The notes under the pieces were generated by a model. The model worked only from the letters and a program-made list of their open reading frames with translations, did not search any database and was not told the origin of the DNA. This document shows positions 5,634 to 53,330 of a DNA stretch of 64,000 nucleotides, in pieces (the stretch's first letter is position 1; each line of letters begins with the position of its first letter). Origin of the DNA: Streptomyces sp. PH10-H1. GTDB taxonomy: Bacteria; Actinomycetota; Actinomycetes; Streptomycetales; Streptomycetaceae. The position numbers were made by a program, and so were the translations under genes. The DNA is taken from contig NZ_JASISZ010000036.1 in NCBI RefSeq assembly GCF_030063355.1, positions 1 to 64,000 of the forward strand, read 5' to 3'.

Positions 5634-6806
5634 ATGGAGAACCCAGCTGTGATAACGCCCCGCTCATTGGCCACCGAAGCGGTGCACGCCGGCCGCGAAG
5701 ACCTCGCGGGACTCGGTGTGCATGCCGTGCCCCTGGACCTGTCCACCACCTATCCGTCGTACGACAGCCGCGGTGAGGCCGCCCGGCTCGACGCGTTCGC
5801 GGCCACCGGCGCCCGGCTGGAGGGCCCGCCCGTCTACGGCCGGCTGGACAATCCGACCGTCAGCCGTTTCGAGACCGCGCTGGCCCGGCTGGAAGGCACC
5901 CAGGACGCGGTCGCCGTCGCCAGCGGCATGGCGGCGCTGAGTGCCTGCCTGCTGGCGCGCGGCTCCCTGGGGCTGCGCCATGTCGTCGCGGTGCGCCCGC
6001 TGTACGGGTGCAGCGACCATCTGCTGTCCGGCGGGCTGCTGGGCACCGAGGTGACCTGGGTGGACCCGGCGGGCATCGCCGCCGCGATCCGGCCCGACAC
6101 CGGTCTGGTACTGGTCGAGACCCCCGCCAATCCCACCCTGGCCGAACTCGACCTGCGCGCGATCGCGCACGCCTGCGGGACGGTGCCGCTGCTCGCGGAC
6201 AACACCTTCGCCACGCCCGTCCTGCAGCGCCCCGTCCAACTGGGCGCGAGCGTTGTGCTGCACAGTGCGACGAAGTACCTCGGCGGTCACGGCGATGTGC
6301 TCGGCGGGGTGGTGGCCTGCGACGAGGAGTTCGCCCGGCGGCTGCGCCAGGTCCGGTTCGCCACCGGCGGCGTGCTGCATCCGCTGGCCGGCTATCTGCT
6401 GCTGAGGGGACTGTCGACGCTGCCGGTGCGGATGCGGGCGGCCTCGCAGAGCGCCGCGCTGCTCGCCGGGCGGCTGGCCGACGATCCGCGGGTGGCGGCG
6501 GTCCACTACCCGCGGATCGGCGGGGCCATGGTCGCGTTCGAGGTGTGCGGCGACCCGCACGAGGTGATCGCCGCGGTACGGCTGATCACCCCGGCCGTCA
6601 GCCTCGGCAGTGTCGACACCCTCATCCAGCACCCCGCCTCGATCAGCCACCGCATCGTGGACGAGCGGGACCGCCGGTCGGCGGGAGTCAGCGACCGGCT
6701 GCTGCGGATGTCGGTCGGGCTGGAGGACGTCGAGGACCTGTGGCACGACCTCGACGGGGCGCTGCGGGCCGCGGCCCGCACCCCTGCGGTCACTTCCGGC
6801 TCGTGA
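5634..6806 (+). CDS. Trans-sulfuration family PLP enzyme (cystathionine/methionine gamma-lyase-like)
   Basis: A 390-residue Cys/Met-metabolism PLP enzyme (aspartate aminotransferase fold type I). Visible landmarks are the cofactor loop ASGMAALSA, the tyrosine-bearing VYGRLDNPT segment that contacts the neighbouring subunit's PLP phosphate, and ADNTFATP. The PLP lysine is near residue 214 in HSATKYLGGHGD, and SLGSVDTLIQHPAS in the C-terminal domain is typical of gamma-lyases and methionine gamma-lyases. An upstream AGGA gives a plausible ribosome site. Its Lrp neighbour suggests amino-acid-responsive expression. Methionine gamma-lyase, cystathionine gamma-lyase or homocysteine lyase activity cannot be separated by eye. 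The 3' end overlaps the next, convergent gene by 17 bases. Confidence 0.85.
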   Translation: MENPAVITPRSLATEAVHAGREDLAGLGVHAVPLDLSTTYPSYDSRGEAARLDAFAATGARLEGPPVYGRLDNPTVSRFETALARLEGTQDAVAVASGMAALSACLLARGSLGLRHVVAVRPLYGCSDHLLSGGLLGTEVTWVDPAGIAAAIRPDTGLVLVETPANPTLAELDLRAIAHACGTVPLLADNTFATPVLQRPVQLGASVVLHSATKYLGGHGDVLGGVVACDEEFARRLRQVRFATGGVLHPLAGYLLLRGLSTLPVRMRAASQSAALLAGRLADDPRVAAVHYPRIGGAMVAFEVCGDPHEVIAAVRLITPAVSLGSVDTLIQHPASISHRIVDERDRRSAGVSDRLLRMSVGLEDVEDLWHDLDGALRAAARTPAVTSGS

Positions 6807-8124
6807 CCACGGCCGGGGAGGGCACTTCCGACGCCGACAGCGACGCGGTGATGACCAGCGTGCCGTCCTCGACCTGGTAGTCCAGCGGGAGTCCCAGATC
6901 GCGCATGGTCGCCACCATGCCGGTGTTGGTCGCCTGGGTGACGGCGTAGACGCTGCCCCGGCCCGCCTCGACGGCGAGGCCGACGAGCTTGCGCAGCAGT
7001 TCCGTCCCGATGCCGCGCCGCTGCCAGTCGTCCTCGACCAGCAGGGCGACCTCGTTCTCGTCCCCGTCCCACAGCAGGTGCGCGAGCGCGACCAGCCGGC
7101 CCGACGCCGTCTCGACGGCCAGCGTCCGGCCGAAGCGCGGGCTGAGCAGATGGGTCAGATAGCGGTCCGCGTCGGGAACCGGGCCGTGGTAGCGCTGCGC
7201 GAGGGTCGCGGGGGAGCAGCGCTCGTGCATGGCGCGGGCGGCGGGCAGATCCTCGGGTCCTGCCCGGCGGATCGTGATCTCGTTGCCCTCCGGCAGCGTC
7301 AGCACGTCCTTGCTGTCGGGCATCCGCACGCCCAGCCGCGCGTCGAGCTCCACCAGCGCGCGGGCGCGGGCGAACTCGGTCGGGGTGAACGGCAGATAGG
7401 CCCGCTCGACGGTGATCGTGCCGCTGGACGGGTCGCGCAGCCGCATCACCGTGTCCGTCAGGGAGTCCTCCGGCGGCGCCGAGCCGTCCTTGGCGGCCGG
7501 GACCGAGCGGATCGTGCACCGGCCGAAGAGCTGGCGCAGGGCGAGCGGCAGCTCCGCGGCGTCCAGGGCGGTGCGGGTGGCGAGCGTCAGCATCCGGGTG
7601 GGGGTGTCCACCAGATCGTGGGCGTCGGCACGCTCCGTCCAGGTGTCGCGTCCGCCGGCCGCCCTGACGGCCTCGGCCAGCGCGGTGGCCGGCACCGAGG
7701 CGGGTGCCCGCAGCAGGAACTCGTCCACCGTGCCGTCGGCCAGCGGATGCGTCTGCAGCGTCAGGATGGCGACGCCCGCGTCGGCCAGTGCCATGCATAC
7801 CGCACCGAGGCTCCCGGGGGTGTCCCGCACGGTGGTGCGCATCCGCCACAGGGCCGCCGTGCCCGGCTCTGTCGCGCCGGCCGCGGGGGCCGGGCCGGGA
7901 GGCGAATGGCTGTGGCGGCGTGCCCACCATGTGTGGAATCCGGCCGTCGCCAGCAGTGCGGCGGCCGAGGCGACCAGCAGCACGGGCCCGTCCGGGCCGT
8001 GCGCCACCAGATTGGCCAGCAGGTCGGCGGTGGCCAACGCAGTGAACAGCGCGGCGAGTTCGACCAGGTCGTGCCGCCAGTGGTGGCGGCGGGAACGGTT
8101 CTTCGCAGGAGTCAACTGAGGCAT
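6790..8124 (-). CDS. Membrane-anchored ACT-like/GNAT acetyltransferase
   Basis: A 444-residue multidomain protein. The N-terminus has two hydrophobic segments (about residues 20-65, including DLVELAALFTALATADLLAN and LLVASAAALLATAGFHTWWA), so it is probably membrane-attached. Next comes an ACT-like regulatory domain (about 90-165: TTVRDTPGSLGAVCMALADA). A long middle part follows, and then a C-terminal GNAT domain (about 280-430) with motif A around LVEDDWQRRGIGTELLRKLV, the RxxGIG acetyl-CoA loop. The ACT-GNAT join suggests amino-acid-regulated acetylation, as in actinobacterial protein lysine acetyltransferases, but the acceptor is unknown. The start is the ATG at 8124. Confidence 0.8.
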   Translation of the reverse strand: MPQLTPAKNRSRRHHWRHDLVELAALFTALATADLLANLVAHGPDGPVLLVASAAALLATAGFHTWWARRHSHSPPGPAPAAGATEPGTAALWRMRTTVRDTPGSLGAVCMALADAGVAILTLQTHPLADGTVDEFLLRAPASVPATALAEAVRAAGGRDTWTERADAHDLVDTPTRMLTLATRTALDAAELPLALRQLFGRCTIRSVPAAKDGSAPPEDSLTDTVMRLRDPSSGTITVERAYLPFTPTEFARARALVELDARLGVRMPDSKDVLTLPEGNEITIRRAGPEDLPAARAMHERCSPATLAQRYHGPVPDADRYLTHLLSPRFGRTLAVETASGRLVALAHLLWDGDENEVALLVEDDWQRRGIGTELLRKLVGLAVEAGRGSVYAVTQATNTGMVATMRDLGLPLDYQVEDGTLVITASLSASEVPSPAVVTSRK

Positions 8125-8213
8125 GAGAACACCATGTCGAACGCGTGTTGCGTGATCACGAACGTTCTATGACCGGTGGGTTAAGGGTGGTTCCTGGTGG
8201 TTAATTTGCGCTT

Positions 8214-8780
8214 TCAACTGGTTTGCCGCCCGCCGGCCGCTGACGGTCGTCGGTCACCGCCCGCCAGCCGCCGCAGCACGCGGCCGCACCTGCGCGCGTA
8301 GGCCCGTTGCAGGGCGCGGCCCAGCGGACCCGACGCGCGCATGTACCAGCTCGCCGACCGGCTGAACGCCGTCACGCTCAGCCACGCCGAACCGTCCGGC
8401 AGGCGTTCGACGATGAAGGACTCCTCGCCGCACTCCGGGTGGCCGGCCAGGGTCCCGTACGCGAAACCGGTCCGCTCCTCGTCCCGTACGGTCCACACCA
8501 CCTCGCAGGGCGCCCGGAGCCGCAGCCGTCCGATGCCCAGGCCGACCACGACCCGAACCCCGGGCGCGGCCTCCGGCGCGGTCGCGTCCATCGTCACGCC
8601 CATGGCACGGTGCATCCGCCACTCCAGGACCGCACGCCCTGCCGTCTCCACCAGCCGGGGACCGCTGCCCAGCCGGGTGCGGACCCGGAAGTAGTGGTAG
8701 CCGGGAGGCGGCGACCCGGCGATGTGCCGGGTCGCACCCACCTCCGCGTACGTGAAGGGGGCGGAGCGCTGCGAGGACAT
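8214..8780 (-). CDS. DUF1990 family protein
   Basis: A 188-residue DUF1990 protein. Conserved family landmarks are FTYAEVGATR near the start, GYHYFRVRTRLG, the WRMHRAMG helix, GFAYGTLAGHPECGEESFIVE, and ITAFSR-like SVTAFSRSASWYMR. The fold is SRPBCC-like and no reaction is established. The ATG at 8780 is the start, since similarity begins there. This codon overlaps, on the opposite strand, the ATG at 8779 of the divergent reading frame, so the two starts share two bases and there is no intergenic space for separate promoters. Confidence 0.85.
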   Translation of the reverse strand: MSSQRSAPFTYAEVGATRHIAGSPPPGYHYFRVRTRLGSGPRLVETAGRAVLEWRMHRAMGVTMDATAPEAAPGVRVVVGLGIGRLRLRAPCEVVWTVRDEERTGFAYGTLAGHPECGEESFIVERLPDGSAWLSVTAFSRSASWYMRASGPLGRALQRAYARRCGRVLRRLAGGDRRPSAAGGRQTS

Positions 8781-43506: not shown

Positions 43507-45480
43507 GTGGCAGACGGTTCCAGCGCTGAGCATCCGGATTCCGACGCCGGGCAGGCCCGGCTGCAGGCATTGCGCGAGGCGGGCCTGACGGCGTCCTCGG
43601 ACGCGGACATGGAACGGTTCGCCCAATTGGTGGCGCGCAGCCTGCGCGTACCGATGTCGCTGGTGTCCCTGGTGGGGGAGGACCGTCAGGTCTTTCCCGG
43701 GATGGTCGGACTGGCCGAGCCGTGGGCCACCCGCCGTGAGACCCCGCTGACCCACTCGCTGTGCCAACACGTCATCGCCACCGGGCGTCCCCTGGTCCTG
43801 CCGGACGCCCGGCGTGACGCGCGGACGTGCGACAGCCTGGCCATCCCCGACCTCGGGGTCGTCGCCTATGCCGGAATGCCGCTGACCGACGGGAACGGAC
43901 ACGTCCTGGGGTCGCTGTGCGCGATCGACACCACGGTGCGGCAGTGGACCCCGCGCGAACTCCAGGACCTGGCCGACCTGGCGGCGGCCTGCTCGGCGGA
44001 ACTGCGGCTGCGCATCGTCTCCCAGCACGCCGTCTACGCCCAGGGGCTCGCGGAGGACGCGCGACGGGAAGCGGAGTCGGCCCGAGCGGCGGCCGAACTG
44101 GCCCGGCGGGAGGCGGAGGAGGCGCGCGGCCTTGCGCAGGGACTGGCCCGGACGGCCCACCAGGCGCTCAAGAGCGCGGAGCTCCTGCTGCGTGCCGCGG
44201 AGGACCTGACGGGCACCACGAGCGTGGAGGATGTGCGGCGCCAGGTCGGAGAGCTGGTCAGCGGGGACCTCAAACCGACCTACGTGGGCCTGATCCTCCT
44301 GGAGGGCGACCAGTTGCGGCGCGTGCAGGACCCCGACGCGCCCCACGCGGTGGAGTCCGACTTCGAGGTGTTCGGCCTGGACGCCGATTTCCCCACTGCG
44401 CGGGCCCTGCGTGAGCGGCGGATGATCACCGTCCCGGACCGCGCCCACATGATGAGCCGTTACGGGCCCGACGCGGTCGACGGGTTCGACTCCCTCGGCC
44501 TGCAGTCCGCCGTCTGTCTGCCGCTGTCCGCCACCCGGGGCCCGGTTGGGGTCCTGATCCTGGGCTGGGGCGAACCGCACGCGGTCGACCTGCAGGAGAG
44601 CGCCGTCCTGACGTCGGTGGCCGGATACACCGCGCAGGCCGTGGAACGCGCGGTCTTCCTCGGCGAACGCATCAACGTCGCCCATCAGCTGCAGCGTGCC
44701 ATGCTCACCGATCTCCCTGCCGTCGCGTACCTGGACTGCGCGGCCCTGTACCTGCCCGCGGCGATCGACGACATGGTCGGCGGCGACTGGTACGACAGCT
44801 TTCCGCTCCCCACGGCCCCCGGCCACGGCCCCGCGCTGGCGGTGACCGTCGGTGACATCACGGGACACGATGTCCACGCGGCCGCCATCATGGGACAGGT
44901 CCGCAGCATGCTGCGCCAGTCCGTCCTGGACCACCCCGCCCAGGGCCCCGCGGCAGCGCTGTCCGCCCTGGAGCAGGCCTGCGCGACGCTGTCGCTGCAC
45001 GCCAGCGGCACCGTGGTGCACGCCCACCTCGAGCGGCAGGGTGACGCCTGGTCACTGACCTGGACCAACGCCGGCCACCCGCCACCGCTGCTGCTGCATC
45101 CGGACGGCCGCACCACCCTCCTGGACCAGCACGACATGATGCTCTACCCCGGCCTGGACCACGCCCCGCGTGCCGACCACCATCTCCTGCTGGAACCCGG
45201 TTCCACCCTCTTGCTCTACACCGACGGACTCGTCGAGCGCCGGGACCGCGGCATCACCGCCTCCCTCGAACGCACCGCCGAACTGCTGGCCGCCCACCGT
45301 GACCTGCCGCTGCCGCAGCTCCTCCAGCGGCTGGCCCGTGAAGTCGCGGGCCCCGACAACAGCGACGACATGGTGCTGCTCGCCCTGCGCACCGACGGAG
45401 GGGTCCCCAGGAGACGGTTCCGCCGGGCCCGAACCGCCCGCGCCGCCCCAGCATCCGCCCCGGAAGAGGGAGCGCAGTGA
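43507..45480 (+). CDS. GAF-GAF-PP2C serine phosphatase (RsbU/SpoIIE type)
   Basis: A 657-residue sensor phosphatase. The first GAF domain (about residues 30-165) has VVAYAGMPLTDGNGHVLGSL CAID. A coiled coil (about 180-220) follows, then a second GAF (about 230-385) and a C-terminal PP2C/SpoIIE domain with VGGDWYDSFPL, VTVGDITGHDVHAAAIMGQV (metal Asp residues), WTNAGHPPPLLLHPDGRTTL, LLLYTDGLVERRDRG and DNSDDMVLLALR. It would dephosphorylate a STAS antagonist to release a sigma factor. The GTG at 43507 has GGGAGG 5 bases upstream; an ATG at 43462 is in frame but lacks a ribosome site. It overlaps the STAS gene start. Confidence 0.9.
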   Translation: MADGSSAEHPDSDAGQARLQALREAGLTASSDADMERFAQLVARSLRVPMSLVSLVGEDRQVFPGMVGLAEPWATRRETPLTHSLCQHVIATGRPLVLPDARRDARTCDSLAIPDLGVVAYAGMPLTDGNGHVLGSLCAIDTTVRQWTPRELQDLADLAAACSAELRLRIVSQHAVYAQGLAEDARREAESARAAAELARREAEEARGLAQGLARTAHQALKSAELLLRAAEDLTGTTSVEDVRRQVGELVSGDLKPTYVGLILLEGDQLRRVQDPDAPHAVESDFEVFGLDADFPTARALRERRMITVPDRAHMMSRYGPDAVDGFDSLGLQSAVCLPLSATRGPVGVLILGWGEPHAVDLQESAVLTSVAGYTAQAVERAVFLGERINVAHQLQRAMLTDLPAVAYLDCAALYLPAAIDDMVGGDWYDSFPLPTAPGHGPALAVTVGDITGHDVHAAAIMGQVRSMLRQSVLDHPAQGPAAALSALEQACATLSLHASGTVVHAHLERQGDAWSLTWTNAGHPPPLLLHPDGRTTLLDQHDMMLYPGLDHAPRADHHLLLEPGSTLLLYTDGLVERRDRGITASLERTAELLAAHRDLPLPQLLQRLAREVAGPDNSDDMVLLALRTDGGVPRRRFRRARTARAAPASAPEEGAQ

Positions 45481-45863
45481 TGAGCGCCGTGCACGACGAT
45501 CCGGAGGAAGAGGCCTTCGGCGAGGCGTTCGCCGCCCACTACGACCACGGTGACGACGCGCATGTGATCGTGCTGCGGGGGATCCTCGACTGGCGGACCG
45601 AGGAGTTCCTGCGCGACGCCATCGAGCACGCCCGCCGCAGTCACCGCCGTCTGGTGGTTGATCTGTCGGGCGTCAGCTACGCCAACATCGACGTCCTCGC
45701 CCTGTTCCTCGCCGCACGCACCAGCCCGGGCCTCAGCTTCACCGCTCCCGTGCCGGAGCCCATCGCGAAGTTGCTGGACACCACGGGTACCACCGAGGTC
45801 TTCACCGTCCATGCCACCCTCGCCGACGCTCTCAGCCGTCCGCCGGGCGCTCCCCGGGCCTGA
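45477..45863 (+). CDS. STAS domain anti-sigma factor antagonist
   Basis: A 128-residue STAS protein: DDAHVIVLRGILDWRTEEFL, RDAIEHARRSHRRLVVDLSG, VSYANIDVLALFLAAR, then FTAPVPEPIAKLLDTTGTTE and VFTVHATLADAL. In SpoIIAA/RsbV the segment after DLSGV is xFMDSSGL, whose Ser is phosphorylated by the anti-sigma kinase. Here it reads SYANIDVL, so the phosphorylated Ser appears to be replaced by Asp. Its GTG/ATG (45477/45480) overlaps the phosphatase stop (GTGATGA), so translation is coupled. Confidence 0.85.
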   Translation: MMSAVHDDPEEEAFGEAFAAHYDHGDDAHVIVLRGILDWRTEEFLRDAIEHARRSHRRLVVDLSGVSYANIDVLALFLAARTSPGLSFTAPVPEPIAKLLDTTGTTEVFTVHATLADALSRPPGAPRA

Positions 45864-45883
45864 CGGTGCGCTGAGGGGGCGGG

Positions 45884-46746
45884 TCAGCAGGTGCCGGCGA
45901 GCATGCCCCGGCGCAGCCGGGTCAGGACGGAGTTGAGCAGGCGGGAGACGTGCATCTGGGAGACACCGAGTTCCTGGCCGATCTGTGCCTGCGTCAACTC
46001 GTCGCCGAAGCGCATCTGCAGGATGTGGCGGTCGCGTTCACCCAGCCGGGCCATCAGAGGCTTGAGGGTCTGCAGGTTCTCGATGCCGGTCATGGCGGGG
46101 TCCAGATCGCCGATCCGGTCGGCGAGGCCGCCGCCCCTCTCGTCGTCCTCGGAGGTGGGGGTGTCCAGCGATCCGGCGGTGTAGCCGTTGCTGGCGACCA
46201 GTCCCTCGATGACCTCTTCGGAGGTCAGCTGCAGGTGGGCGGCCAGCTCGGCGGTGGTGGGGGAGCGGTCCAGGCGGGCGGACAGCTCATCGACGGCCTT
46301 GGCCAGCGACAGTCGCAGCTCCTGCAGGCGGCGCGGTACATGGACGGCCCAACTGGTGTCGCGGAAGAACCGCTTGATCTCACCGATGATGTACGGCACG
46401 GCGAAGGTGGGGAACTCTACCTCGCGCGACAGGTCGAAGCGGTCGATGGCCTTGATCAGTCCGATGGTGCCGACCTGGACGATGTCCTCGAAGGGCTCGG
46501 ACCCCGGTTGCGGAAGCGCCGGGCGGCGAACTTCACCAGGGCCATGTTCAGCTCGATCAGGGTGTTGCGCGCGTACTGGTGGTCGCGCGTGCCCTCGTCG
46601 AGGGTCCGCAGCCGGTCGAAGAAGATCTTCGACAGTGCCCTCGCGTCGGCCGGAGCGACCGTGCCGGCATCCTCCACCCAGGGCAGCTCCCGCTCCGGCG
46701 CGATTCCAGTGAGCGCTCGGACCGTCGCCTTGGCTGCAGTGCCCAT
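45884..46746 (-). pseudogene. SigB/SigF-type sigma factor gene with a frameshift
   Basis: From the ATG at 46746 (MGTAAKATVRALTG) the frame covers region 1.2/2 (DHQYARNTLIELNMALVKFA, ARRFRNRG), then loses sense. The rest follows in another frame: EPFEDIVQVGTIGLIKAIDR, FDLSREVEFPTFAVPYIIGE, IKRFFRDTSWAVHVPRRLQE, region 3 LDRSPTTAELAAHLQLTSEE and region 4 LGERDRHILQMRFGDELTQA, QIGQELGVSQMHVSRLLNSV, to the stop at 45884. The break is at the G4 run about 46503-46506 and needs one base lost (or two gained). Intact, it would be a full-length group 3 sigma of about 285 residues. Programmed frameshifting is less likely than mutation or a base-calling error. Confidence 0.8.
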
Positions 46747-46890
46747 GAGGTGAATCTCCCAGTGCGGTTGGCATTCGCTCGGTCCGACGACCGTTCGTCT
46801 GCCCGCGATCCCCGACTCCATGCCCCTGTGACGTCCCCGGATATCCCGCTGATGCCCCGGCCCGCCCGGCACTTCCTGAACGGGACGGAC

Positions 46891-47271
46891 TCAGCCGGCC
46901 GCGGTGCCGGCCGCCGGGCGCCACCACTGAGCGCGAACCGCCTTGCCGCCGGGGCGCTGTACGACCTCCACGGTGGTGGTGAGGGCGCGCACCACGGTCC
47001 ATCCCAGGCCGCCGCCCCCGGACAGATCGGGGATGCGCGCGGTGGGCGGGGTGTGGCTGGAGTCGTCGACCCGTACGGTCAGGCGGTCGCGGCGTCCGTC
47101 CACACTGAGCTGCCACCAACCGGTGGTGTGCCGTACGGCGTTGGTCACCAGTTCGGAGACGACCAGGACCACCGCGTCGAGATCGGCCCATGGGCACACC
47201 CGGGCCACGAACAGGGCCGTCGCGTCACGGGCCTCAGCGGTGTCGCCCGTCTCCGAATCCATGAGGATCAT
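46891..47271 (-). CDS. Anti-sigma factor/ATP-binding protein (RsbW-like HATPase)
   Basis: A 126-residue single-domain GHKL ATPase of the Streptomyces RsbW-like type. It has an N-box helix LDAVVLVVSELVTNAVRHT, VRVDDSSHTPPTARIPDL with the first G box, GGGGLGWTVVRALTTTVEVV and a C-terminal strand GGKAVRAQWWRP. Such proteins bind a sigma factor or phosphorylate a STAS antagonist. It lies upstream of the sigma gene on the same strand and near the phosphatase and STAS genes, so it completes the partner-switching set. The start is the ATG at 47271. Confidence 0.85.
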   Translation of the reverse strand: MILMDSETGDTAEARDATALFVARVCPWADLDAVVLVVSELVTNAVRHTTGWWQLSVDGRRDRLTVRVDDSSHTPPTARIPDLSGGGGLGWTVVRALTTTVEVVQRPGGKAVRAQWWRPAAGTAAG

Positions 47272-47568: not shown

Positions 47569-49599
47569 ATGGTGCAGGCGCCACCCCCTGGGCTGGGCGA
47601 GATCGACGCCCTGGTGCACGAATGCTGGTCGCGACCGCCCCGCGCACCGGATCGGGCGCTGCCGGTGATAGCCCTGCTGGGACGGCCCGGCAGCGGCAAG
47701 ACGTTCGCGCTCGACCACTTCGAGGCCGTGACGCGCGGGGCCCCGGCCGCCCGGGTCGACTTCGCCGCCGCGGACGAACAGCGGCCGTACGAAGTCGCCG
47801 TGCATCTCGCGTTCCTGCTGGCGCGCCGGCACAGCGGCCTCAAGCCGCTGCGCTTCCCCCGGCTGCTGCTCGGGCTGCTCGCCGTACAGCCCGAGCTGTC
47901 GCTGATCGACCGGGAACAGGCCACCCGCGAACTGCGCAAGGCGCTTCGTCAGGCACGCAGCCGGGGCGTCTCGGTCGACGCGGGCGAGGTCAGCTCGATC
48001 ATCGATTCGCTCGGCCTGTCCCCGATTCCCGGTACCGACCTCATCATCGGTGTGCTGCTGCGCGGATTCGAGTACATGCCGACCCGCACCTTCCTCAACC
48101 AGACGTACCACTGGTACGGAACGCTCGGACCGCCCACCGCGATGGACGAACTGGTCGAGCTGAACCTGCGCAGCCGCAGCACGACGGAGGAGCACCGCGA
48201 GGCCGTGGACCGGCGGCTGTGCGAGGCCTTCCTCGCCGATCTGCGCGCCGCGTACGGCCACGCCCGCCGCGACCACAACTGCCTGGTGCTGCTGGACAAC
48301 ATCGACCACAGCCACGGCACCCGCTTCCTCGACCTGCTGGTACGGCTGCGCGCCGAGCACGCCGTGTCGCACCCCGGCACCTACGATCCGCTGCTGATCG
48401 TGGCGACCAGCGCCACCACCCGCGCGGTCCCGGGCCCCGCCGACGGCCGGCCCTCGGACCCCCATATCCAGGTGGCCGACCGCGCCTCGTACGCCGACTG
48501 GCGGCCGCGCGCCGACGCCCCGCCCGCGGACTGGTGGTACCCGGTCCGGTTACGCGACCTGTACGAGGTCGAGGTGTCACTGGAGGCGGGGCGGCATCCC
48601 CTGCACGCCACGCAACTCGCCCGCGCCACCCCGCTGGTGCACCGGCTCACCTACGGCCACCCGTGGAGCGTCCAGCAGGTGCACACCGCCATCGGCGAGC
48701 TGCTCGCCGCGGGTGTCTCGGACCGCGATCTGTACGGTCTGCTGGACCCCCCGGTCCCGGGCGCGGACGGCGATCCGGCCCACAGGCCGCCGCTGGGCGC
48801 CGTGGTCCGCGATTACCTGCTCAGCGGACTGACCGCCGACCAGCGGGCCGCCGCGATACCGCTCGCCGCGGCCCGGACCCCGTCGGCCGCTGTCAACTCC
48901 GGTCTGCTCAATGACCTGTCCGAGCACGCCCGGGACACCGTCATGCTCGAACTGCGCAACGAGCTGTGGCTGTTCGCGCCGGTACCGGAGGACGCCAACA
49001 CCCGCGGTGGCCGCGGCCCGTCCGGCTATCTCCTGCCGGCCGATGCCCCGGAGGAGCGGCCCGTCCTGCATCCATGGCTGCGGCTGCTGCTGCTCGAGGA
49101 GCTGGCCGGGTCGTCGGCCCGGGCCGACGACCCGGCCGCCTGGCAGCAGGCGCACCACGCGCTGCGCGCCTGGCACGAGCGCCACGGCCGCCCGCTGGAC
49201 GCCCTCTACCACCGGCTGGCGCTGAACGAACTCGACGCGGTGGTAGAGCATTTCGCCCAGGGTTTCGGCGCCGCCGACGCGGCGCCGTGGCTGCGCGAGC
49301 TCTACCACGTCACCGCGGCCCCCATGCACCGTGTGCAGCTGACGGACGCCCAGCCGTCGCACAACGCGGGCCGGCTGGCCCGCGAGCACGCGCCGGCCGC
49401 GTACGCCGAGCCGGTCACCGGCCGGCCCCTGGCCGAACTGACCGCCGCGCTGTGGCTCGCGGGCGACCCCCGTAACCGGCTGCCACCGGGCCGTCCCGAA
49501 CTCAACTACAAGATCAGCGCCATGTTCCGGCAGCTGGCGCTGGCGGCGGACGCCGACACCGACACGCTGCTGGACGAGGCCGCCCGGTTCACCGACTGA
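47569..49599 (+). CDS. P-loop (STAND-like) ATPase of unknown function
   Basis: A 676-residue soluble protein. Walker A is VIALLGRPGSGKTFALDHFE (residues about 34-52). Walker B is NCLVLLDNIDHSHGTRFLDL (about 237-256), followed by a sensor-like YDPLLIVATSATTRAV. After the NTPase core come a winged-helix-like region (LTYGHPWSVQQVHTAIGELL) and a long helical C-terminal half with LHPWLRLLLLEELAGS and ALRAWHERHGRPLDALYHRL, resembling the helical arms of STAND regulators. No membrane segment or nuclease motif is seen. The ATG at 47569 has GAGGGGG upstream. It is 52 bases ahead of a membrane-anchored binding protein and surely co-transcribed. Confidence 0.75.
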   Translation: MVQAPPPGLGEIDALVHECWSRPPRAPDRALPVIALLGRPGSGKTFALDHFEAVTRGAPAARVDFAAADEQRPYEVAVHLAFLLARRHSGLKPLRFPRLLLGLLAVQPELSLIDREQATRELRKALRQARSRGVSVDAGEVSSIIDSLGLSPIPGTDLIIGVLLRGFEYMPTRTFLNQTYHWYGTLGPPTAMDELVELNLRSRSTTEEHREAVDRRLCEAFLADLRAAYGHARRDHNCLVLLDNIDHSHGTRFLDLLVRLRAEHAVSHPGTYDPLLIVATSATTRAVPGPADGRPSDPHIQVADRASYADWRPRADAPPADWWYPVRLRDLYEVEVSLEAGRHPLHATQLARATPLVHRLTYGHPWSVQQVHTAIGELLAAGVSDRDLYGLLDPPVPGADGDPAHRPPLGAVVRDYLLSGLTADQRAAAIPLAAARTPSAAVNSGLLNDLSEHARDTVMLELRNELWLFAPVPEDANTRGGRGPSGYLLPADAPEERPVLHPWLRLLLLEELAGSSARADDPAAWQQAHHALRAWHERHGRPLDALYHRLALNELDAVVEHFAQGFGAADAAPWLRELYHVTAAPMHRVQLTDAQPSHNAGRLAREHAPAAYAEPVTGRPLAELTAALWLAGDPRNRLPPGRPELNYKISAMFRQLALAADADTDTLLDEAARFTD

Positions 49600-49651
49600 G
49601 GACCCGACCGCAGTTCTGATCCGCTCTGTTCCGTCTGAGGAGGAACGCGCT

Positions 49652-51181
49652 ATGCCGACCCGGGGCCAATGGGTGACCGGCAGCCGCCTGTGGATACGGT
49701 GGCCGTGGAACGTGGTGCTGGCCGTTCTGGTGCTCGCGCTCGCCGGCTCCACCGTCACCTGGGTGCTGTGGCCGAAGGACACCTCATGCGCTGCCGCCGT
49801 GCGGCAGGTGGGGGCCGACGGGCAGTGCGTCGGCGTGACGGACGGCTCGTACCACTTCTCCGACAACCTGGCGGCGGTCTCCGACCTGATCCGTACGCAG
49901 AACGAGGCGGTCGACAAGGACGGCCGGTCCTTCGTGAGCATCGTCTACCTCATGCCGATGATCCCCGGCCCCAAGGACACCACCACCCCCGACTCCGTAC
50001 GGCACGAGGTCCAGGGCGCCTATTCCGCCCTGTACGAGGCCGACAACAAACTCGGCGGCGGCGATGTCCCCCGTATCCGGCTGCTGCTGGCCAACTGCGG
50101 CGGTACCGATGAGCAGCGGGACGCCGCGCTGGAGGAGATCCGCGGCCGGATCGGCCCGGACCATATCGTCGCTGTGGCCGGACTGGGCACCAGTACCGAC
50201 GAGACCGCGAGGATGATAGGGAAGGTGACGGGTGACCCGGAGTCCGGCGGACTGCAGCTGGCCGCGGTCGGCTCCGTCATCACCGCGGACACCCTCGCCA
50301 AGATCCACGGGCTGGTCCGCACCGCCCCGACCAACGCCGACGAGGCGGCGGCCGCCGCCTCGTTCCTCAAGCAGCCGCCGTACGCCGGGTTGAAGGTCCT
50401 GATGGTCCAGGACGCCCGCGCCGACGACCAGTACAGCCGCACTCTCGGCGCGGCGTTCCTGGCGGTCCTCCCGTCCGAACGGCTGGCCGGACAGGTCGAG
50501 CAGTACGACTCCTCGCAGGACGGCGTCGCCACCGCGTTCGCGACCCGGATGGCGAATCTGTGCGCGGTGAAACCGGATGTCATCTACTTCGCCGGCCGCG
50601 GTGTGGACCTGCCCAGCTTCCTGGCCCCGCTCAAGAACCGGCCCTGCCCCGACCGCAAACTCATCGTGCTGTCCGGCGACGACGCCTCGCAGGTTGCCCA
50701 GGCCGCCGGCTTCGACGAGATAAAGGAGACCCTGCGGAGCGGCACCGTCCGGCTGCTGTACACCGGCCTCGCCCACCCCGAGGCCTGGGCCAGGCGTCCC
50801 GCCGCGTTCCCGGCCCCGGTCACCGGTGCCTCCGGCACCCTCGGCAGAAAGGGCTACTTCCAGGCGACGTTCCCGCTGGAGTCGCTCGACGACGGTCAGG
50901 CGATCATGGGCTATGACGCCGTCACCACAGCTGTCGTGGGAGCCCGTCTGGACTCCAGGACATCCAACGGCCGGGTGACCGGCTCCCGGATGATCCAGAT
51001 CTGGCAGTCGCTGCACCGGGTCGACGCGGTGCATGGCGCCAGCGGGTACATCTCCTTCGGCAATGACGGCTCTCCCCAGGACAAGGCCGTCCCCGTCATC
51101 GAGATCGGCGCCGACGGATTGGTCCACACGCTCGCTGTCTCCTCTCGAACGGGCACTCCGTTCGTCCCGAAGCAGGACTGA
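49652..51181 (+). CDS. Membrane-anchored type I periplasmic-binding-like receptor
   Basis: A 509-residue protein with one N-terminal membrane helix (WPWNVVLAVLVLALAGSTVT, about residues 18-42) and an extracellular two-lobe ligand-binding domain of the branched-chain amino acid/ANF-receptor type: VSIVYLMPMIPGPKDTTTPD, VPRIRLLLANCGG, VAVAGLGTSTDETARMIGKV, PPYAGLKVLMVQDARADDQY, PDVIYFAGRGVDLPSFLAPL and HGASGYISFGNDGSPQDKAV. It has no lipobox and no downstream kinase or permease, so it is not a standard ABC binding protein. GAGGAGGAA precedes the ATG. It probably senses a ligand for the partner ATPase. Confidence 0.8.
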   Translation: MPTRGQWVTGSRLWIRWPWNVVLAVLVLALAGSTVTWVLWPKDTSCAAAVRQVGADGQCVGVTDGSYHFSDNLAAVSDLIRTQNEAVDKDGRSFVSIVYLMPMIPGPKDTTTPDSVRHEVQGAYSALYEADNKLGGGDVPRIRLLLANCGGTDEQRDAALEEIRGRIGPDHIVAVAGLGTSTDETARMIGKVTGDPESGGLQLAAVGSVITADTLAKIHGLVRTAPTNADEAAAAASFLKQPPYAGLKVLMVQDARADDQYSRTLGAAFLAVLPSERLAGQVEQYDSSQDGVATAFATRMANLCAVKPDVIYFAGRGVDLPSFLAPLKNRPCPDRKLIVLSGDDASQVAQAAGFDEIKETLRSGTVRLLYTGLAHPEAWARRPAAFPAPVTGASGTLGRKGYFQATFPLESLDDGQAIMGYDAVTTAVVGARLDSRTSNGRVTGSRMIQIWQSLHRVDAVHGASGYISFGNDGSPQDKAVPVIEIGADGLVHTLAVSSRTGTPFVPKQD

Positions 51182-51239: not shown

Positions 51240-53087
51240 TCAGAACGGGTACAGCGCGCTTGCCGGCACGATGCGCTGTGCCTCGTCGGGGGCATACCAG
51301 AGCAGTTTCATGGCCGCTTCACCGGTGCGTTCGGTGAAGTCGACGCGGATGGAGTACTTCTTTCCGGCCTGCAAAGCCACCGTGCCGGTGTCGACGGCGG
51401 CGTCATGCGGAGTGGTGTTGCTGATGAGCTGCTTGCCGTCGATCCAGACCTGCACCGTGTCGTCGGAGACGGTGAGGAAGGTGTACGCCTGGCTGTACCG
51501 GGGCTGGATCGATCCGGTCCACCGGGCGGAGAAGTTGTCGGTCGGAACGGCCGGGTCGGGCGAGCCGAGGTAGCGCCATACGAAGTTCAGCGTCTTGTCG
51601 GTGCGGGTCACCTTCGGGCTTCCGCTGAACGAGGCGTTGTCCCAGTACTGCGCGGTCAGTCCGGTGCCGTTACCGGTCGCCGGCCGCGGCGGGGCGTAGG
51701 TCAGCTCGATGACGGTGGCAACCGCGTTCGTCGCCGATCCGGACGGCGTGATGTCGTAGCCGTCGCCCGCCGCCTTCCAGGTGACCTGCTGACCGCTGCC
51801 GAGTACCCGTGCCCCGGTGATGGCCAGGGCCGCGGTGGCGGTCAGGTGCAGCGGTTTACCGGCGCCCGGCCAGGAGTAGACCGATGCCTCGAGCTTGTTG
51901 CCCGGTGCGGCGGCCACCGCTCCCCATGAGGGCGTGGCCACGTTCCTGGCCGCGCTCGCGCCGTGGACCGCGGCGCCCTGCCCGTTGCCGGCGAGCCAGG
52001 ATCCCATCGAACGCAGCCGGTCGGCCGCCGCCGCGGGCACCGCACCGGTCTTGTCGGGACCGATGTTGAGGAGGTAATTGCCGCTGCGGGAGGCGATGTT
52101 GATGACGTTGCGGGTCAGCGTGGTCGCGGACTTCCAGTTGGTGTCGTAACTGGCGTAACCCCAGTGGTCGTTGAGGGTCATGCAGGATTCCCAGAGCTGT
52201 CCGCCGACCGGGGCCGAGGGGATCTCCTGTTCCGGGGTGCCATAGTCGCCGTCGGCGATCCGGCGCTTGTCGACCCGGTTGTTGATCACTAGATTGGGGT
52301 CGAGGCCGTGCAGATAGGTCTGCAGCGCCTCGCCGTCGGCGCTCGACCACGGGTTGGCCGGGTTGTCGGTCGCCCACTCGCCGTCGAACCACAGGACCGC
52401 CGGGTGGTAGTTGTCGACCAGCTCCTTGAGCTGGGCGTACATGTCTTTCTTGTACTGCGTGAAGTCGGCGGTGAAGTTCGGGTTGTGCCAGTCCCAGATC
52501 GAGTAGTAGAGGCCGAACTTGATCCCCTGGGAGTCGGCGGCGGCCTTCATCTCGGCCAGCATGTCGCGGCTCTTGCTGAACGACGAATGGTCCCGCAGAT
52601 TCCAGGTGTTGACCTTCGTCGGCCACATCGCATAGCCCTCGTGGTGCTTGGCCGTCTGCACGATGTAGCGCTGGCCCGAGTCCTTGGCCAGCTTCACGAT
52701 CGCGTTCGCGTCGAAGGCCGCGGGGTTGAACCGGGCGGCGATGTTCTCGTACTCCGGCTTCGGGATGGCGCAGTTGCGCTCGATCCATTCGGCGTCCCGG
52801 CACACCGTCCCGTCGGGGCGGGTGTACGACCCCTGCAACTGGGAGTAGGCGCCGTAGTGGATGAACATGCCGAACCGGTCGTCGCGCCACCACTGGGTGC
52901 GCGCGCTGGTGAAGGGATCGTCGTAGGCGTAGTTCGTGCCGGGACCGGCGACGGCCGGTGCGGCGGCCCGAGTTGTGGACGCGGCGGCCGACGCGGCGGT
53001 GGCCGGACCGCCGGCCAGGCTCAGGGCCGCGACCAGCGCGACCACGAAGGCGAGTACCAGGTGGAGCGTGCGTGCTGAGCGGATCAT
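51240..53087 (-). CDS. Secreted GH29 alpha-L-fucosidase with PA14 domain
   Basis: A 615-residue exported enzyme. A signal peptide (LHLVLAFVVALVAALSLAGG, cleavage about residue 31) is followed by the GH29 barrel: WWRDDRFGMFIHYGAYSQLQ, YIVQTAKHHEGYAMWPTKVN (the conserved KHHxGxxxW), LYYSIWDWHNPNF and the nucleophile segment PAVLWFDGEWATDN (Asp). A beta-sandwich domain follows, then a PA14 domain (about 470-615: GTGLTAQYWDNASFSGSPKV, YTFLTVSDDTVQVWIDGKQL). It releases alpha-L-fucose from glycans; PA14 probably binds carbohydrate. The second ATG (53087) has GGAG 6 bases upstream and is preferred. Confidence 0.92.
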   Translation of the reverse strand: MIRSARTLHLVLAFVVALVAALSLAGGPATAASAAASTTRAAAPAVAGPGTNYAYDDPFTSARTQWWRDDRFGMFIHYGAYSQLQGSYTRPDGTVCRDAEWIERNCAIPKPEYENIAARFNPAAFDANAIVKLAKDSGQRYIVQTAKHHEGYAMWPTKVNTWNLRDHSSFSKSRDMLAEMKAAADSQGIKFGLYYSIWDWHNPNFTADFTQYKKDMYAQLKELVDNYHPAVLWFDGEWATDNPANPWSSADGEALQTYLHGLDPNLVINNRVDKRRIADGDYGTPEQEIPSAPVGGQLWESCMTLNDHWGYASYDTNWKSATTLTRNVINIASRSGNYLLNIGPDKTGAVPAAAADRLRSMGSWLAGNGQGAAVHGASAARNVATPSWGAVAAAPGNKLEASVYSWPGAGKPLHLTATAALAITGARVLGSGQQVTWKAAGDGYDITPSGSATNAVATVIELTYAPPRPATGNGTGLTAQYWDNASFSGSPKVTRTDKTLNFVWRYLGSPDPAVPTDNFSARWTGSIQPRYSQAYTFLTVSDDTVQVWIDGKQLISNTTPHDAAVDTGTVALQAGKKYSIRVDFTERTGEAAMKLLWYAPDEAQRIVPASALYPF

Positions 53088-53330
53088 GGGCATCTCCGTT
53101 GATGCGTGGATACAGGGTTCATCCGAATAACGGGAGCGGGAACTTTCATCCGATGTCTAGTGGGCGTCAGCGATGCCCGTCAAGAGAAGTTGCCGGAAAA
53201 ACGCCAATCCCCGGCGATTTTCAGGACCCTTGCTCCGCGCGATATGGGAAGTCATCCAATCTTTCCAGCGGAATCGCCACCTCCGAGTGCGCGGACTGTG
53301 GTTGCGGCCCCCGACAGTTGTGGCGCACGG

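Follow-up and report, generated by a model that had tools for sequence, protein, structure and literature searches.

The binding proteins LivJ and LivK serve ATP-binding cassette (ABC) importers. Proteins of the STAND class (signal transduction ATPases with numerous domains) usually do their sensing inside the cell, by means of C-terminal domains of their own, and STAND folds are common in defense and cell-suicide systems. For the actinobacterial proteins GlnH, GlnX, and PknG, encoded by conserved gene neighbors, two reports describe amino acid sensing and propose that the signal crosses the membrane to reach a partner in the cytosol (PMC6069109, PMC9769921). Here we describe a two-gene locus (positions 47569 to 51181) in a 64,000-nucleotide stretch, the window, from the 8.5-Mb draft genome of Streptomyces sp. 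PH10-H1. We consider it reasonably probable that its two genes encode one signaling unit, in which an amino-acid-type Venus-flytrap receptor is served by a STAND or pseudo-STAND partner.

An initial annotation had reported a 676-residue protein encoded 52 nt ahead of a second one, and the sequence bears this out, the second reading frame being 509 amino acids long. Both genes, and every feature of them given below, lie on the forward strand. The upstream gene (47569 to 49599) encodes a STAND-type NTPase, as judged from the reading frame, a structural model, and the top rows of a VIA-align fold comparison. The downstream gene (49652 to 51181) starts with ATG and encodes a single-pass Venus-flytrap receptor, and the gap between them (49600 to 49651) carries a ribosome-binding site, gaggagga, at 49637 to 49644. 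Promoter and terminator scans detected nothing. Neither protein matched a family above its cutoff in Pfam, NCBIfam, or PADLOC, and the receptor had no match at E ≤ 0.001 in the curated libraries.

The pairing of these genes is not due to chance, and they form a conserved two-gene unit, because close orthologs of both occur in the same order in four other genomes of the genus and diverged pairs are widespread. A scan of contigs gave 167 stretches encoding a relative, of which the best 79 were kept as named loci, so that this set leans toward receptors like that of the window. Among these best 79 of 167, 71 are pairs with the ATPase gene directly upstream on the same strand, and the intergenic gaps are short (zero or negative in 12, 1 to 20 nt in 33, 21 to 145 nt in 24, and longer in 2; median, 5 nt). 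The remaining eight comprise six loci in which the receptor domain begins at about residue 306 of a 780- to 787-amino-acid protein, one with an N-terminally short receptor and no partner (L118), and the fusion L136. A further sample of 20 matches, spread down the strong, listed part of the order-wide receptor table, contained 19 pairs and one protein with a kinase-like N terminus (17 of 18 were pairs after two repeats of named loci were dropped). Within the genus (35 genomes), single-sequence searches found the receptor in 25 genomes and the ATPase in 14. The latter has diverged further than the receptor, and profiles recover it beside most receptors. An ATPase homolog lies directly upstream at 26 of 29 receptor places in the genus, window included (25 mostly complete and 1 a contig-edge fragment). 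Of the three unpaired places, L050 is a kinase fusion, L065 is what remains of a receptor, and L066 encodes a single chain. The pairing put forward in the initial annotation thus held, and in the loci examined the two genes are not mostly separated.

The receptor is widely distributed within the order, where its profile matched 314 of 391 genomes, a count made up of pairs and fusions and, among its weakest matches, probably of ordinary binding proteins. Across the phylum it matched 12 of 396 genomes, the window's included. Of these 12, four have only weak scores (E = 3.9e-7 to 7.7e-4); among them, L165, L166, and L167 adjoin branched-chain amino acid transporter-like genes, and the L165 protein belongs to Peripla_BP_6 in Pfam, indicating kinship between the receptor and branched-chain amino acid binding proteins. 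The nearest receptors among the named loci are from Streptomyces fildesensis, Streptomyces sp. H39-S7, and Streptomyces sp. SPB162 (80 to 82% identity). The family profiles found one ATPase and two receptor matches in the window's own genome, the second receptor match (L212, E = 3.0e-9) being a LivK-like protein that adjoins permease-like genes (named by eye). In a plasmid collection whose matching records lacked annotation, the receptor matched four records and the ATPase one, and an Embleya record has both side by side.

The fold and topology of the receptor agree with the single N-terminal membrane helix and external type I periplasmic-binding protein (PBP) fold first proposed for it. Hydropathy places one membrane helix at residues 13 to 31, and an AlphaFold2 model (54-row alignment; mean predicted local distance difference test [pLDDT], 93.3; predicted TM-score [pTM], 0.90) places it at residues 17 to 39 (49700 to 49768). 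The PBP domain, outlined by the model, Foldseek, and profile alignment, spans approximately residues 46 to 500 (49787 to 51151). Foldseek ranked Leu/Ile/Val-binding proteins best for this model (4n0q, E = 1.3e-17, TM-score by target 0.79; 3td9, E = 2.0e-17, TM-score 0.81), with the metabotropic glutamate receptor mGlu5 and taste receptors lower among the matches, and profile searches of Protein Data Bank (PDB) sequences agree on the Leu/Ile/Val-binding kinship. Three Lys/Arg residues fall within the 16 residues preceding the helix, and this short basic N-terminal tail is consistent with an N-in/C-out topology. The reported lack of a lipobox also stood: the pattern was absent from the first 60 residues of all 98 receptors shorter than 560 amino acids, the window's among them.

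Residues of the flytrap cleft point to the class of ligand. In mGlu1, Ser165, Thr188, Asp208, and Tyr236 bind glutamate through its carboxylate and amine (PMC2680970). In a profile alignment, receptor residues Ser181 (50192 to 50194), Thr211 (50282 to 50284), Asn228 (50333 to 50335), and Tyr261 (50432 to 50434) lie opposite the corresponding mGlu5 residues, whose spacings of 23, 20, and 28 are those of the mGlu1 set; Ser181 is the counterpart of the carboxylate-binding Ser165. Arg316 (50597 to 50599) is kept in 111 of 111 aligned receptor rows, and the combination S181-T211-N228-Y261-R316-D343 reads STNYRD in 92 of those 111. This signature occurs in every Walker A class of the partner, including receptors whose partners have lost the Walker A lysine (22 of 24 with alanine and 9 of 9 with glycine at that position), and the single-chain proteins L066, L156, and L157 read DSDYRD at the same six sites. 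These residues make an alpha-amino acid, or a molecule derived from one, the most likely ligand, and the match to mGlu1 opens a direct ligand test of the flytrap domain.

The partner was harder to place. Its AlphaFold2 model (47-row alignment; mean pLDDT, 86.0; pTM, 0.89) retrieved HslU first in Foldseek, with CED-4 and NLR proteins lower, but the HslU alignments had poor TM-scores (0.16 to 0.21 by query length), and HslU was rejected as the nearest fold. VIA-align was therefore used for the fold assignment. Its best rows were the plant NLR proteins RPP1 (Z = 13.4, 296 residues aligned, root mean square deviation 4.5) and WRR4A (Z = 13.3), followed by CED-4 (Z = 12.4) and archaeal PABY2304 (Z = 12.2). 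The top STAND rows align about 300 to 320 residues of the model, compared with 239 for Cdc6 (Z = 10.8), and Avs3 also appears among the matches (Z = 9.3). Because for helical folds a Z value below about 13 may be no more than middling, we assign the NTPase-helical-winged-helix arrangement of STAND NTPases to this predicted structure with moderate confidence. The initial description as a STAND-like ATPase is favored by this comparison and by the presence of Walker A and B motifs, but it gains nothing from Pfam, where AAA_16 scored 24.3 bits against a cutoff of 32.6 and AAA_22 was likewise subthreshold; by sequence the protein would be at most a distant AAA_16 member. A profile search of PDB sequences returned mostly generic P-loop matches, the best being adenylate kinase 9 (E = 4.6e-5). 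Walker A reads GRPGSGKT (residues 38 to 45; 47680 to 47703), Walker B reads LVLLD (residues 239 to 243; 48283 to 48297) and is followed by Asn244, and a GxP-type motif, which we take to be a marker of STAND proteins, occupies residues 363 to 365 (48655 to 48663; Gly363 in 94 of 94 aligned rows, Pro365 in 90 of 94).

Most loci without a separate upstream ATPase gene prove to be fusions of the receptor to a Ser/Thr kinase, to the ATPase, or to a relative of the NTPase that lacks the P loop. The absence of a kinase, as first reported, is correct for the window locus but does not extend to the family: Pfam identified Pkinase in the three receptor fusions scanned (L050, L104, and L121; E = 1.6e-40, 9.5e-45, and 2e-41), and the kinase-type fusions L107, L120, L122, L124, and L186 lay outside that scan. 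L136, from Kutzneria sp. 744, is a chain of 1,158 amino acids comprising a P-loop NTPase (with a subthreshold Zeta_toxin match, E = 0.0067), a membrane helix at residues 677 to 695, and the receptor. A more distant class, common in Streptomyces-type genomes, was sampled by searching 40 genomes with a weak best receptor match (E = 5.1e-21 to 1.7e-54); 19 of the 20 loci taken encode single chains of 826 to 983 amino acids, and the other, L201, was called short. The N-terminal parts of 24 single-chain proteins (those of the 20 distant-class loci together with L066 and L156 to L158) match the NTPase domain of the separately encoded ATPase (hhalign probability, 99.2%; E = 1.1e-19; 333 columns) and match neither the trimmed receptor alignment (1.4%) nor kinase domains (0.1%). 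The ATPase set also scored high against the receptor (99.5%), which we ascribe to its inclusion of the fusion L136. No Walker A pattern was found in any of 25 single chains, even when read upstream to the previous stop codon. In all these fusions, kinase fusions included, the output part is N terminal, the membrane helix follows, and the flytrap domain is C terminal. The joining of an NTPase or a kinase to the receptor favors a signaling output. A separate protein, L161 (7794 to 10133, reverse strand), combines the receptor domain with an N-terminal region of about 270 residues in which Pfam recognized nothing and whose start resembles a helix-turn-helix by eye.

Loss of the Walker A lysine is common among the ATPases. 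At the Walker A lysine position, 89 of 94 aligned ATPase rows were readable, and they carry 54 K, 24 A, 9 G, 1 T, and 1 R; Asp243 is kept in 94 of 94 rows and Asn244 in 86 of 94. In a quick tree built from these 89 rows, which carried long-branch warnings, the K/non-K label changes three times (a G clade of 9, an A/T clade of 25, and L137). The lysine-less clades, diverged yet still paired, look functional. Nucleotide switching cannot be general, because 35 of 89 partners lack the lysine. The first proposal, a one-helix receptor tied to a cytoplasmic ATPase switch, thus survives in part: linkage and fusions support the tie well, and the window's copy keeps both Walker motifs, but a plain ATPase switch does not suit the lysine-less relatives.

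Computation supports the folds, topology, linkage, fusions, and residue conservation described above. From these we infer physical contact between the two proteins and the direction of signaling. The extracellular flytrap domain would bind a small ligand, and closure of its cleft would shift the membrane helix together with the short cytosolic tail. That movement may be passed on to the STAND protein encoded just upstream, altering its state, and this protein would then act on an effector. In the window's copy the change would be one of nucleotide state or assembly, and a purely scaffolding role would apply to lineages that lost the Walker A lysine. Several observations weigh against a single signaling unit of this kind. 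The lysine retained in the window is lost in more than a third of readable partners, and no effector domain was recognized in the ATPase. The position of mGlu Asp208 holds an asparagine (Asn228), and Asp343 was placed as the counterpart of mGlu Asp318 by position alone, outside the displayed alignment. Partner genes are called short or interrupted at, for example, L094, L099, L123, L129, L133, and L134, and the receptor frame of a close relative (G021, locus L071) is broken into two pieces in different frames. In the phylum survey, the ATPase matched at E ≤ 1e-70 in six genomes and the receptor adjoins it in five, the exception being G195, which carries the ATPase without a receptor. Finally, no neighboring gene family is common to all clades among the named loci.

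Gene surroundings vary by clade while the pair stays, so the pair itself is the conserved unit. Between 15 and 18 loci share cytochrome c biogenesis (ccs)-like neighbors, and nine have a DnaK-like gene directly downstream (both named from sequence by eye). At seven loci with lysine-less pairs (L058, L062, L063, and L073 to L076), two genes follow, one family each, which in L063 are DUF4139/DUF4140 (DUF4139 confirmed by Pfam). Four loci of the genus (L053, L054, L055, and L060) lie in a ter-like cluster, with TerD confirmed by Pfam in L053 only. The window's group adjoins a sigma-factor gene, Pfam-confirmed in the window and in L068. At L211, an ATPase gene without a receptor (6687 to 8774) stands between flanking genes of the ccs-type group, a natural case of loss. 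Directly upstream of the window's pair, positions 43507 to 47271 encode a GAF-SpoIIE phosphatase, a STAS protein, a sigma factor, and a HATPase anti-sigma-like protein. The sigma gene, of SigB/SigF type (45884 to 46677, reverse strand), is split over two frames with regions 3 and 4 in one piece only, either as a real pseudogene or through sequencing error; its L068 counterpart is one intact frame of 271 amino acids with regions 2 to 4. Just downstream and convergent with the receptor gene is an alpha-L-fucosidase with a PA14 domain (51240 to 53093, reverse strand). No LivH/LivM homolog was found at E ≤ 1e-5 among the 1,319 genes of the loci and window, a screen that did not cover other permease classes; this agrees with the initial report of no ABC permease beside the pair, and receptors paired with permeases were not the rule in the loci examined.

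Other explanations account for parts of these data. A defense or cell-suicide system, with the STAND protein as an Avs- or NLR-like executioner and the receptor sensing an outside threat, is unlikely, although it could claim the Avs3 fold match and a precedent in the work of Kaur et al. (2020), whose System 4 includes, as one variable part, transmembrane helices with an extracellular PBP domain fused downstream of caspases (PMC7159879). PADLOC matched neither window protein, a Pfam scan of partner and fusion proteins recognized no caspase or nuclease (the only toxin name being the subthreshold Zeta_toxin match in L136), and the clade with ccs-like neighbors keeps the pair at one locus, unlike mobile defense islands. 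The ATPase might instead assemble or load the receptor without signaling, and the tight linkage and gene order would fit cotranslational assembly equally well; we regard this as a little less likely again, since the NTPase domain fused to the receptor, or a kinase fused in its place, argues for signal output and so many partners lack the Walker A lysine.

Two further readings draw on neighbors and fold. That the pair feeds the adjoining partner-switching sigma-factor genes in the window's genome is suggested by their position just upstream and by a sigma-factor-like gene adjoining the pair in the four closest relatives too (Pfam-checked only in L068), but the neighbors of other pairs are quite different and the window's own sigma-factor gene has a broken frame, making this improbable. 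Most disfavored, and very improbable in our view, is a nutrient-uptake binding protein for a remote ABC transporter that is linked to the ATPase gene incidentally. The receptor does have the branched-chain amino acid binding protein fold, and its distant relatives L165 and L167 adjoin permease- and ABC-ATPase-like genes; set against this are a membrane helix in place of the lipobox, the lack of LivH/LivM nearby, receptor fusions to kinases, and the separate LivK-like protein beside permease-like genes (L212) that the same genome encodes.

We consider it about evenly balanced whether the pair represents a widespread, undescribed class of actinobacterial transmembrane receptors, in which a flytrap sensor of amino acids acts in trans through a dedicated STAND protein and the partner is in some lineages a pseudo-NTPase, fused, or replaced by a kinase. 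If so, it would constitute a bacterial family of modular receptors with interchangeable outputs. Sensing by a membrane receptor would link the detection of small molecules outside the cell to the NLR-like switch proteins, and, given receptor matches in 314 of 391 genomes of the order, antibiotic producers may possess a sizeable sensing route that has escaped annotation. A literature search of open-licence PMC papers, preprints excluded, found no earlier description of the pair, which does not prove its absence from print.

Comparison with described systems sets the pair apart from each of them. The window's ATPase shares the NTPase, helical, and winged-helix-type arrangement of STAND NTPases (CED-4/Apaf-1, plant NLRs, PABY2304, MalT, and Avs) by fold comparison and keeps Walker A and B, but unlike them it has no recognized effector or sensor domain, many of its relatives lack the Walker A lysine, and sensing seems to have been handed to a second, membrane protein. 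The receptor resembles LivJ/LivK in fold and distant sequence similarity; unlike them, it is membrane anchored, has no lipobox, and is not accompanied by a LivH/LivM permease. The Venus kinase receptors of invertebrates place the flytrap first in the chain, the opposite of the order in the bacterial fusions. They are otherwise alike in being single-pass proteins with a flytrap outside, Ser165 kept, and a catalytic output inside, elements that the bacterial kinase fusions found here also combine (PMC2680970 for the animal receptors); they are animal tyrosine kinases, however, and the window's receptor has no kinase. System 4 is likewise a two-gene, membrane-associated, actinobacteria-prevalent system, some members of which have transmembrane helices and an extracellular PBP domain, but its constant parts are EACC1 and a caspase (PMC7159879) rather than a STAND NTPase, kinase, or pseudo-NTPase. 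Among the scanned partner and fusion proteins, Pfam found no caspase family (EACC1 was not searched for), and a term search of the main text of a 2021 paper by Kaur et al. returned neither "PBP" nor "periplasmic." The nearest actinobacterial analog is GlnH-GlnX-PknG, which, in the reports cited above, also places a binding-protein fold outside as an amino acid sensor and a partner in the cytosol. There, the sensor GlnH is a lipoprotein of its own, four membrane segments belong to GlnX, and the output is the kinase PknG, whereas here the sensor and a single helix are combined in one protein, with a STAND NTPase as its partner.

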